Of a DNA stretch of 64,000 nucleotides, positions 14,941-39,374 are shown in pieces. Both the position numbers and the translations under genes were made by a program. The first letter of the stretch is position 1. Every line of letters starts with the position of its first letter. The DNA comes from Saliphagus infecundisoli (GTDB lineage: Archaea; Halobacteriota; Halobacteria; Halobacteriales; Natrialbaceae), in the NCBI RefSeq assembly GCF_020177375.1, contig NZ_JAIWHV010000010.1, positions 1-64,000 on the forward strand, read 5' to 3'. The notes under the pieces are model-generated. The model ran no database searches, was not told the origin of the DNA, and saw only the letters and a list, made by a program, of their open reading frames with translations.

Positions 14941-14944
<4 letters not shown>

Positions 14945-16263
14945 CCGAGATCCCCTTTTCGGTCCCCGACGCCGAGGAACTGCGGGCGGCGACCGACGCC
15001 ACGATCGGGGACCTGCCCCGGGTCGCGCCCGCCACCCGCCACCGCGATCACGACGAGCTCCCGGACGTCGAGCGGGCGGCCCACGAGGCCGTCGGCGATA
15101 TCGACGGGTTGGGGGAGCTTCCGCCCGGCTCCGAGGTGGGGATCACCGCCGGGAGCCGCGGGATCGACGACATGCCGACGATCCTCGAGACCGCCGTCTC
15201 CGAACTCCGGGAGCGAGACCTGAAACCCGTGATCCTCGCGGCGATGGGGAGCCACGGCGGCGCCACCGCGGAGGGTCAGCGCGAAACCCTCGCCGCCCTG
15301 GGGATCACTCCCGAGACCATCGGCTGTGTGATCCGCTCGTCGATGGCCGTCGATCGCGTCGGCGAGGATGGGTTGGGACGACCGGTGTACGCCGCCCGGG
15401 ACGCCCGGGAAGTCGATGGCGTCGTCCTCGCCAACAGGGTAAAGCCCCACACCGACTTTTCGGGACCGGTCGAGAGCGGGCTCTGCAAGATGGCCGTCAT
15501 CGGCCTCGGCAAGCATCGTGGCGCCGAGTCGCTGCACAACGCGGGCCTCGCCGCCGACTTCTCGTCGGTGATCCAGGAACGCGCGGGGATCCTGCTGGAG
15601 GAGCTCCCGATCATCGGCGGGATTGCCCTCGTCGAGAACGCCCGCCACCGGGCCGCCCACGTCGAGGGGATCGACGCCGGCCGAATCCTCGAGCGAGAAC
15701 CCGAACTCCTCGAGACGGCCAGAGAAACGCTCGCGACCCTTCCCGTCACCGACCTCGACCTCCTGGTCGTAGACGAGATCGGCAAGGAGATCTCGGGGAC
15801 GGGAATGGACACGAACGTGCTCGGTCGGACCTACTTCCACGGCGAGGACGAACCCGACGAGCCATCGATCGCGCGGGTGTACGCCCGATCCGTGACGCCG
15901 GCCTCCCATGGCAACGCCCTCGGGATGGGCCTGGCGGACTTCGTGCATCGAGACGTCGTCGCCGACCTCGCGGTCGAGGACATGTACGTCAACGTCGTCA
16001 CCAGCGGCGAGCCCCGCCGGGCGAAGCTGCCGTTCGTCGTCCCCGACGACGCGACCGCGCTCCTGGTTGCCCCCTCGACGACCGGCGTCGCCGACCCCGG
16101 CGAACTCCGGTTCGCGCGGATCCGAAACACCCTGGAACCCGACGACCTCGTCGTTTCGGAGCCGGTCGCCCGCGAGCTCGAGGACAGGCCCGACGTCACC
16201 GTAGGGAAACTCCGCCCGATCGAGTTCTCGGAGGGCCGACTGGAGACGGCGCCGTACGACTGA
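14941..16263 (+). CDS. LarA-family 2-hydroxyacid racemase/epimerase homologue
   Basis: The 440-residue protein belongs to the nickel-dependent lactate racemase (LarA/DUF2088) superfamily. Residues matching those of Lactiplantibacillus LarA can be picked out. H105 in MGSHGGAT and H170 in KPH match the two catalytic histidines. K183, 13 residues on, matches the lysine that bonds the nickel-pincer cofactor. H199 in SLHN matches the metal-binding histidine. The H170-K183 spacing is three longer than in LarA. It overlaps pdxA2 by 4 nt and ends the operon. A C2-epimerase converting another tetronate to the kinase substrate is a reasonable inference. Its maturation genes (larB, larC, larE) are not in this window. 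Confidence 0.78.
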
Positions 16264-16344
16264 TAGGGTCGGTTACAACGATGTACCGTTCGGTCGCAGT
16301 ACCGTGTTGTGATCGACGGTGCAATGACTTGTAACCGACCCTAT
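16263..16344. repeat. nested palindromic element, copy 1
   Basis: The outer arms at 16263-16278 and 16329-16344 are perfect 16-bp inverted repeats beginning ATAGGGTCGG. Inside, ACCGT (16285-16289) pairs with ACGGT (16316-16320), and GGTCGCA (16292-16298) pairs with TGTGATC (16308-16314) if G-U pairs are allowed. The loop is 9 nt. A second copy is at 39251-39331. The element starts on the last base of the LarA-homologue stop codon and ends 74 nt before the next gene. GAC flanks it on both sides. Confidence 0.75.
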
Positions 16345-16418
16345 GACGTCCCGATCCGCTCGCTCGGCTCTCGGTATGCCGGCAGTAGCCCTTTGGCCGC
16401 GTCGTCCGAACTCCGCCC

Positions 16419-36971: not shown

Positions 36972-38191
36972 GGGATCGGATCGAGGGGCTGATCGGGCGT
37001 CTCGTCCGCGCGTCGATCGTCGAGCGGGTCGCCATCGCCGCCGCCGCCCTGGTCGCCGCGGTTGTCGTCGGCGGCGTCCTCGTCTTCGTCTCCGGGGGCT
37101 TTGCCTCGTGTGCGAGCGGGCTGGACCTGGCGGGCTGGACGTTCTGTTACAACCCGATGCAGGTCTACTACGAGCTGTTCCTCGGCGCGCTCGGCCATCC
37201 CCTCGAGGGCGGCTGGCACGTCCACAACTTCAGCCTCGCGACGACGCTCCGGGAGACGACGCTGCTCGCCTTCGCCGGGCTCTCTGTCGCCGTCGCCTTC
37301 CGAGCGGGGCTGTTCAACATCGGCACCCAGGGACAGCTCGTCGTCGGGGGCCTGCTGACGGCGGTGACCGTCCTCTTCGCCGCCCGGTTCGTCCCCGGCG
37401 GCGCCGTCGGAACCCTCGTACTCGTCCCTCTCGGCGTGCTGGCGGGCGCGGTCGGCGGCGGGTTCTACGGCGCGATCCCCGGCGCACTGAAGGCCTACGG
37501 CGGCGCAAACGAGGTGATCACGACGATCATGCTCAACTTCGTTGCGGTCGGAGTCACCTCGACGCTTTTGTCCTGGCGGTTTCAGGACCCCGAGAGCGCG
37601 AACCCCCAGACCCGCGCCGTCCCCGAGTACGCCGAGATCCCCACGATCCCCGTGATCGGCTACAGCCCCCGGCTGGACTTCTCGCTTCTCGCCCTCGGGT
37701 TCGCCGTTGCGTTGATGGTCGGACTCGCCTGGATGCTCGCCCGGACCTCCTTCGGCTACGAGCTCCGGGTCAGCGGGGTCCAGCCGGAGGCGGCCCGCTA
37801 CGGCGGCGTCGCCGAGAAACGCATGACCGTCGCGAGCATGACCCTCTCGGGCGCCCTCGGGGGGATCGCCGGCGCGTTCTGGGTCCTGATGCAACACGGC
37901 CGCTGGCTCGAGAACGTCCCCTCGCTGGGGTTCGACGGGATCGCCGTCTCGATCCTCGCGGGGAACAATCCGCTGGGCGTCGGCGCAGCCGCCTTCCTCT
38001 TCGGCGTGCTCTCGAGCGGCGGCCGGTCGATCAACACCGCGACGGACGTTCCCCCCGAACTGGTCGGCGTCGTCTCGGGGCTGATCATCCTGTTCGTCGC
38101 GATGCCGGAGTTCTTCCGGATGATCGGTCGGCAGTTCCTCGACGTCGACGAGGAACCCGGCCGCGGAACCGGGGGTGGGGCCGATGAGTGA
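36968..38191 (+). CDS. nucleoside ABC transporter permease 1
   Basis: The 407-residue membrane protein has about 10 hydrophobic segments. The characteristic SVAVAFRAGLFNIGTQGQLV and GGANEVITTIMLNFVAVG are hallmarks of nucleoside-type BMP permeases (YufP/NupB-like). The last about 15 residues are polar. It overlaps both the ATPase (4 nt) and the second permease (8 nt), so the operon is tightly coupled. Confidence 0.92.
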   Translation: MRDRIEGLIGRLVRASIVERVAIAAAALVAAVVVGGVLVFVSGGFASCASGLDLAGWTFCYNPMQVYYELFLGALGHPLEGGWHVHNFSLATTLRETTLLAFAGLSVAVAFRAGLFNIGTQGQLVVGGLLTAVTVLFAARFVPGGAVGTLVLVPLGVLAGAVGGGFYGAIPGALKAYGGANEVITTIMLNFVAVGVTSTLLSWRFQDPESANPQTRAVPEYAEIPTIPVIGYSPRLDFSLLALGFAVALMVGLAWMLARTSFGYELRVSGVQPEAARYGGVAEKRMTVASMTLSGALGGIAGAFWVLMQHGRWLENVPSLGFDGIAVSILAGNNPLGVGAAAFLFGVLSSGGRSINTATDVPPELVGVVSGLIILFVAMPEFFRMIGRQFLDVDEEPGRGTGGGADE

Positions 38192-39251
38192 CCTCCTCTC
38201 GCGTCGGAGCGCCGCCGTCGCCCTCGCGGTCCTCGCGGCGGTCACGATTGCGGCCGGGCTCGTCTTTCCCGACTCGTGGGTGGGGACCGTCCTCTCCGTG
38301 CTGGCCAGCCCGGGCACACACACCGCGATGCTCCGGCTCGCCGTCCCGATCGCGCTCGCGGCCATCGGAGGGATCTTCGCCGAGAAGAGCGGCGTCATCA
38401 ACATCGGGCTCGAGGGTCTGCTGATCGTCTCCGCGTTCTCGGCGATCCTCGTCACCTTCCGGCTGGGTGCCGGCGAGTCGACCGCGTTGCTCTCGAACCA
38501 CTGGTGGGGGTTCGCGGTCGGCGTGATCGTGAGCACGCTGTTCGCCCTGCTCTTTGCGGCCGTCTGCATCGAGTTCGAGGCCGACCAGATCATCGCCGGG
38601 CTGGCGGTCTGGCTGATCGCGCTCGGGCTCGCGCCGTTTGCCTCCCGGATCGTCTTCGACAGCCCGAACACCGGCAACGTCGGCACGTTCGATGCCGTCA
38701 CCGTTCCCGTGCTCTCGGAGGTCCCCGTCCTGGGCTACCTGCTGTTCGACACCGGCCCGGACGTCTACGTGATGCTCATCGCGGCGGTCGCGGGCTGGTA
38801 CCTGCTGGCCAGGACCCGCTTCGGACGCTGGGTCGAGGCCAGCGGCGAGAACCCGAAGGCCCTCGATACGGCGGGCGTCGACGTCCGGAAGGTCCGCTAC
38901 GCCGCCGTCTTGCTCTCGGGGATCTTCGCCGGCCTCGGCGGCGCCGGCTTCGCGCTCGGCCAGCTTGGCACCTTTGCGGGCGGCGGCGAGACCGACATCG
39001 GGGGCCGGGGCTTTATCGCCATCGCGACCTACCTCTTTGCGAACTACCATCCCATCGGCGCGCTCGCCGGCTCCTTTCTCTTTGCGGGCCTGGATGCCGT
39101 CCAGATCCGGCTGCAGACCTACGGCTACGCCGTCCCGACCGAGCTCATCCGGACGATCCCCTACGTTACCGTGATCGCCGTCCTCGTCCTCTTCGGGAAG
39201 ACGCGGCTCCCGGAGGCGGCCGGCGAGCCCTACGATCCCGACGAGGACTGA
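38184..39251 (+). CDS. nucleoside ABC transporter permease 2
   Basis: The partner permease has 355 residues from the ATG at 38184; a GTG at 38175 is also in frame. The family motif GIFAEKSGVINIGLEGLLI is near residue 60, with the ETDIGGRGFIAIATYLFANY segment in the last third. About eight to nine membrane helices are present. Its stop codon supplies the first base of palindromic element copy 2, and cytidine deaminase follows about 120 nt later. Confidence 0.92.
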   Translation: MSDLLSRRSAAVALAVLAAVTIAAGLVFPDSWVGTVLSVLASPGTHTAMLRLAVPIALAAIGGIFAEKSGVINIGLEGLLIVSAFSAILVTFRLGAGESTALLSNHWWGFAVGVIVSTLFALLFAAVCIEFEADQIIAGLAVWLIALGLAPFASRIVFDSPNTGNVGTFDAVTVPVLSEVPVLGYLLFDTGPDVYVMLIAAVAGWYLLARTRFGRWVEASGENPKALDTAGVDVRKVRYAAVLLSGIFAGLGGAGFALGQLGTFAGGGETDIGGRGFIAIATYLFANYHPIGALAGSFLFAGLDAVQIRLQTYGYAVPTELIRTIPYVTVIAVLVLFGKTRLPEAAGEPYDPDED

Positions 39252-39331
39252 TACGGTCGGAGACGAGTCAGTGCACCGTCGATCGCAATGCGGTGTGCGA
39301 TCAAACGGTAAATCGTCGTCTCCGACGGTAT
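39251..39331. repeat. nested palindromic element, copy 2
   Basis: The outer arms at 39251-39266 and 39316-39331 match at 15 of 16 positions. Inside, ACCGT (39275-39279) pairs with ACGGT (39305-39309), and GATCGCA (39281-39287) pairs perfectly with TGCGATC (39296-39302), with an 8-nt loop. Relative to copy 1, four outer-stem positions changed with a matching change on the other arm. GAC flanks both sides as in copy 1. It lies between the nucleoside importer and cdd. Confidence 0.75.
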
Positions 39332-39374
39332 GACGAACCGATGCACCGATGGGCCTGGGGATCGACCTCCGCCC

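Follow-up and report, generated by a model that had tools for sequence, protein, structure and literature searches.

Compensatory base changes in a haloarchaeal hairpin repeat, best read as joint turnover of the terminal repeats of a probable IS630-type miniature element

The window considered here (64,000 nucleotides of contig NZ_JAIWHV010000010.1 of Saliphagus infecundisoli) contains two hairpins whose outer stems differ at several positions, with the partner base changed as well, and this locus raises the question of whether such changes reflect selection on base pairing, as in a structured RNA or a 3' regulatory element, or the history of a mobile element. The preliminary description proposed the former and named a miniature inverted-repeat element (MITE) as the alternative. 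We consider it very likely that the hairpins are non-autonomous MITEs belonging to the IS630/Tc1-mariner superfamily. Such an element is probably mobilized in trans by an IS630 transposase, an activity that we infer throughout. Elements of this kind are already known; the notable parts are the 3-bp TNA duplication, the targeting of stop codons, and the palindrome that extends over the full length.

Both hairpins (copy 1, 16263-16344; copy 2, 39251-39331; Table 1) are present in the sequence and fold far better than shuffled sequence, against which both z-scores were calculated (-53.5 kcal/mol, z -8.3 for copy 1; -42.9 kcal/mol, z -4.2 for copy 2). The 16-bp outer arms ascribed to both are perfect in copy 1 only; in copy 2, 15 of the 16 bases match, the exception being G-G at position 5. 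As described, both partners have changed at arm positions 4, 11, 12, and 15; also present are the ACCGT/ACGGT stem and the inner stem, which is wobble-paired in copy 1 and Watson-Crick in copy 2. The two copies had been compared on the same strand, which set copy 1 against the reverse of copy 2: opposite strands match at 64 of 82 bases with one gap, compared with 58 and many gaps on the same strand, and under the family model the minus strand of copy 2 scores 92.1 bits and the plus strand 37.3 bits. Most arm pairs look alike in either orientation because the arms are inverted repeats; judged by their asymmetric interior, the copies are inserted in opposite orientations. The GAC reported on both sides of each copy is there, but it is really a 3-bp TGA duplication (CTGA-core-TGAC) beside genes that end in Asp-stop. 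The right end of copy 2 and its TGA duplication also form an in-frame ATG (39330). As the cytidine deaminase probably starts 45 bp downstream of it (39375), automatic gene callers may extend that gene into the element.

Table 1. Positions of the two hairpin copies and their flanking duplications within the window.
Feature	Position	Strand	Basis
Left target duplication TGA, copy 1; stop codon of ORF 14941-16263 (weak Lar_N match)	16261..16263	+	sequence, ORF list
Probable MITE copy 1, 80-bp core TAGGG...CCCTA, type A (GTTACAA arm subfamily), family-consensus orientation	16264..16343	+	
Copy 1 left arm / terminal inverted repeat ATAGGGTCGGTTACAA; first A common to the TGA duplication	16263..16278	+	
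Copy 1 right arm / terminal inverted repeat, perfect complement of left arm	16329..16344	-	
Right target duplication TGA, copy 1	16344..16346	+	sequence
Left target duplication TGA, copy 2; stop codon of ABC-type permease gene 38175-39251 (PF02653)	39249..39251	+	
Probable MITE copy 2, 79-bp core, opposite orientation to copy 1, GAGACGA arm subfamily	39252..39330	-	
Right target duplication TGA, copy 2, just 5' of cytidine deaminase start 39375	39331..39333	+	

The element had been taken to occur in two copies, and there are in fact about 40 distinct copies in this genome. BLAST with the consensus recovers more than 20, and a covariance model trained on 23 own-genome copies places the family at approximately 40 sites. 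The covariance-model search of related genomes suggested in the preliminary description likewise finds further copies: 29 of the 61 genomes searched (the window genome and 60 relatives) carry the family, namely 27 of the 37 Natrialbaceae sampled (26 besides the window genome) and two genomes from other families, with up to 60 matches per genome among the relatives (some places being counted on both strands). The repeat is multi-copy and dispersed, and at ∼82 bp it is too short for a transposase gene. Its length is nearly fixed (usually 82 bp, with 76-110-bp variants that differ in the apical part), and it is bounded by terminal inverted repeats of about 16 bp that start ATAGGGTCGG. Several arm families share one architecture: type A (ATAGGGTCGG followed by AGACGA, TTACAA, or TTGTAA), a variant with ATACGGTCTGCTGTAA, type B (ATAGTAGCAACTGAAA), and type C (ATACTGTCGGACAGAA). 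Type B is frequent on haloarchaeal plasmids (48 records), and no copy with the type-B core pattern was found in viral contigs.

Some individual loci deserve mention. A third, partly decayed copy (G000:C1:64270-64351) lies 270 bp past the window end, and one of its ends reads GCCCGG, not ATACGG. In genome G020, identical type-B elements are paired in tandem at L080 (C15:51839-52009) and L081 (C50:7396-7569), with spacers of 7-10 bp; each spacer contains N, and the pairs may stem from self-targeting, with the CTATAG end as the target, or from an assembly join. Two larger candidates were rejected: a 2.3-kb candidate autonomous element in G012 (C39) consists of ordinary host genes between two separate ends, and a 909-bp insertion at a type-B site in G119 is not an enlarged version of the element.

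Among the 39 own-genome copies examined, 23 are flanked at the core length by an exact TGA (or TCA) on either side, compared with 0.011% of window positions, and 16 are without an exact duplication; orientation of the element relative to the target is random (9/7 and 11/10). Target TGAs fall preferentially at gene ends: 24 of 35 terminate a gene-like ORF (at least 100 codons, GC3 above 0.75), whereas the share among all window TGAs is 6.5% (binomial p 6e-21, on the assumption that copies are independent). Each of the two window copies has the stop codon of the upstream gene as its left TGA, although copy 1 is outside the 24, because its open frame reaches far upstream and has a GC3 just under the cut-off.

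Related elements allow filled and empty sites to be compared directly. One type-C insertion reads GTGCTC-element-CAATAC in one species, and four genus-mates have the empty site, GTGCTCAACAC or its equivalent. The net gain is the element plus one base, the empty sites being one base shorter than the joined flanks, and the element is therefore TACTG...CAGTA between duplicated TCA/TGA. At a second type-C site, the empty sequence (CAACTGACC) is the TGA stop codon of a gene. For type B, GAGT-element-AGTG corresponds to empty GAGTAGTG (GAGT^AGTG) in a genus-mate, and CGGCT-element-AGG to empty CGGCTAGG; the net gain of 82 bp can be read as an 80-bp TAGTAG...CTACTA core plus a duplicated TA. Type B thus inserts at TA within CTAG (or in TAG stops), and its type-C relatives at a 3-bp TGA. 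The TGA/TCA duplication is seen directly in the nested elements of G012, L281 (C28:100581-100771) and L282 (C22:136446-136637), where the inner copy has entered the host element at TGA/TCA, close to its internal loop; such nesting explains the 191-192-bp pairs. The empty orthologous sites confirm precise insertion of the type-B and type-C relatives, and with their clean target duplications they bear out the mobile alternative in the relatives. For the window loci, orthologues of the cytidine deaminase and the reductase in relatives yielded no empty site, because no syntenic orthologue was found.

The first type-B site also occurs in a third species with the element in the opposite orientation. 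L219 (G035:C1:1545069-1545150) and L245 (G134), from congeneric species, have type-B elements of opposite orientation at the same T^AG site, the result of either independent hits on one target or a flip in place.

A scan for unpaired ATASGGTCGG ends located candidate partners in the same genome. At C37:125 and C24:34771, IS630 ends read ATAGGGTCGG, 10 nt, and TTACCG, the same spacing as in the MITE, and continue with a start MGRFDDITLEELHEVREQTEGEKPRE that matches annotated IS630 transposases on plasmids. The end at C56:204 (ATAGGGTCGGTGACGA) has the type-A consensus base at 15 of 16 terminal positions and is followed by a 57-aa ORF fragment with a DDE_3 match (PF13358, E 4.9e-8); a two-ORF relative, L377, matches the same domain at E 8.2e-35. 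All three ends are preceded by TCA. The assembly of this genome has no intact IS630 copy with type-A ends, and the left and right ends are paired here by deduction because they sit at contig breaks.

Full IS630 elements elsewhere parallel the MITE types: ISNma7-like elements, with ATAGTA ends and CT...AG flanks, resemble type B, the ends ATACTGACGGAG and ATACTCACGG resemble type C, and ATAGGGTCGT resembles type A. The 2-bp TA duplication is found with type B and the ISNma7-like elements, whereas types A and C, like two full IS630 clades, duplicate a 3-bp TNA. In G016, one IS630 element has equal 3-bp flanks in five of seven copies (TAA, TCA, TCA, TTA, and TGA), and another has three copies with TGA flanks; in one genome, the flanks of three full IS630 copies are unequal. 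The flanks of L393 and L395 (G016) are reciprocally unequal (TCA/TTA and TTA/TCA), as expected if the copies had recombined with each other. A DDE_3 search of two heavy type-B/C carriers, G008 and G020, gave no match, so that their mobilizer may be lost, diverged, or different. The L377 transposase is split into two ORFs (717-1226 and 1223-1774) with a 4-bp overlap, and the L383 transposase is annotated over a length (762-1762) that three does not divide, which points to frameshifting or to coupled translation.

From these parallels, a full-length IS630 transposase would bind both terminal repeats and then excise or copy the element, which would insert into TNA, here mostly TGA, with duplication of the three bases. 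Insertion at a TGA stop codon would keep the upstream protein intact, and such insertions would therefore survive. When the element follows a different transposase lineage, its arms would change together, because one transposase must bind both ends, and compensatory base changes would result; after insertion each copy would decay freely.

The covariation on which the RNA proposal was based persists in a larger alignment, a check named in the preliminary description. Over 60 distinct 82-bp copies, the arms are 88% Watson-Crick (18-24% after a shift of one or two bases), and several Watson-Crick types occur at most arm positions across families. These changes are best read as coordinated turnover of two terminal repeats that require recognition by a transposase. 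The interior is less simple: the inner stem is 85% Watson-Crick, and the families have almost the same internal loop, CGAT/TGAC. Identity of the terminal repeats alone does not explain the covariation of the inner stem, and the IS630 ends explain it partly. Per-site variation is 0.092 in the arms and 0.133 in the interior, and relatedness among copies could also produce the lower value.

One way to account for the interior is that the element is mobile and that a hairpin or cruciform takes part in its copying or self-repair, for instance through template-switching correction of the arms, so that pairing is mechanistic. The near-palindromic form over the whole length and the G-C/T-A/C-G swaps in the inner stem, which lies outside the IS630-like ends, are in keeping with this, but in several species a type-B subfamily has retained identical arm mismatches at positions 7 and 9, from which it follows that arms are not routinely corrected, and an old copy shared by G031 and G122 decays without correction. 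We regard this explanation as rather improbable. A somewhat better, though still small, chance is given to a broader conjecture, in which an IS630 lineage moved from TA to TNA targets, with a 3-bp duplication, and its palindromic satellites co-diversified with it, keeping a paired inner stem and a near-constant, asymmetric internal loop (CGAT / TGAC) for which a transposase has no obvious need; the hairpin itself would then be functional, e.g., as a cruciform recognized in transposition or by protecting the upstream mRNA at its 3' end.

That the hairpins are host elements, either a structured RNA or a 3'-UTR regulatory element with base pairing selected in each copy, is very improbable. Such a role would be consistent with the strong hairpins formed by both window copies, with compensatory pairs at nearly every stem position among the 60 copies, and with the location of 24 of the 35 target-TGA copies directly 3' of gene-like ORFs. 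If an RNA had to fold, G-U mismatches should outnumber A-C mismatches on the RNA strand, and private changes should be repaired. Mismatches in the inner stem do lean weakly to G-T over A-C (28:14, p 0.04), but those in the arms have no strand bias (G-T 24, A-C 25), and private arm changes in the two main own-genome subfamilies mostly break pairs (42 one-sided, six both-sided and paired, one both-sided and unpaired). Since the elements also face either way with respect to gene and target, selection at the RNA level is not supported. The species-specific insertions with empty sites argue against it as well, and in the whole window Rfam at gathering scores returned tRNA only, with no match for either hairpin.

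A REP/IS200-IS605-type repeat, moved as a single strand by a Y1 transposase, or a PATE would suit the hairpin shape, the Y1 transposases in 28 of the 37 sampled genomes, and the description of PATEs in Haloquadratum (PMC3119063), but it is extremely improbable for an element whose ends match IS630 elements and which has terminal inverted repeats and target duplications, neither of which is present in PATEs (PMC3119063). Y1 transposases were also considered simply as the mobilizer; they are common, yet the target duplications speak against that role. Kink-turn, integron attC-site, and box C/D readings, judged by eye only, were dropped.

If the hairpins are IS630-type MITEs, textbook compensatory changes can arise without detectable RNA selection, which would call for caution in covariation-based RNA discovery in genomes with palindromic mobile elements. 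The same reading would tie widespread haloarchaeal repeats to IS630-family transposons, provide a testable account of how such short mobile repeats could move, and suggest that, in gene-dense archaeal genomes, stop codons are safe places for an element to land.

Several known systems are comparable. ERIC, RUP, and Correia are dispersed bacterial palindromes, often near genes, that are read as MITEs; they belong to other hosts, and the likeness is one of description. The SMR-A and SMR-B elements of Haloquadratum walsbyi, whose mobilizer was enigmatic to the authors, are 80-110 bp long with prominent terminal inverted repeats and up to 54 copies, and were reported to target PATEs without target duplication (PMC3119063). 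The window element resembles them in size, in its terminal inverted repeats, and in copy number, but differs in duplicating TGA, and two Haloquadratum plasmids searched with the family model gave no match. On plasmid PL100 of H. walsbyi C23, a 113-bp repeat (L295:30509-30621) has the ends ATACTAT...ATAGTAT and is possibly one of the SMR-A elements. No description of this MITE family was found in the literature covered, from which subscription papers were mostly absent, and an earlier one is possible. With bacterial and archaeal MITEs in general the element shares its short, non-coding form, transposon-related terminal inverted repeats, target duplication, and many copies; unlike them, it is palindromic over nearly its whole length and has at least four arm families on one architecture. 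Among IS630 elements, ISNma7 and ISNpe3 have the ATAGTA[A/G] ends, CT...AG flanks, and TA duplication of the type-B elements, and other clades share their ends and TNA duplication with types A and C. The IS630 duplication is usually given as a 2-bp TA; in contrast to IS630 transposons, the window element is 80 bp long and non-coding, and duplicates 3 bp (TGA).
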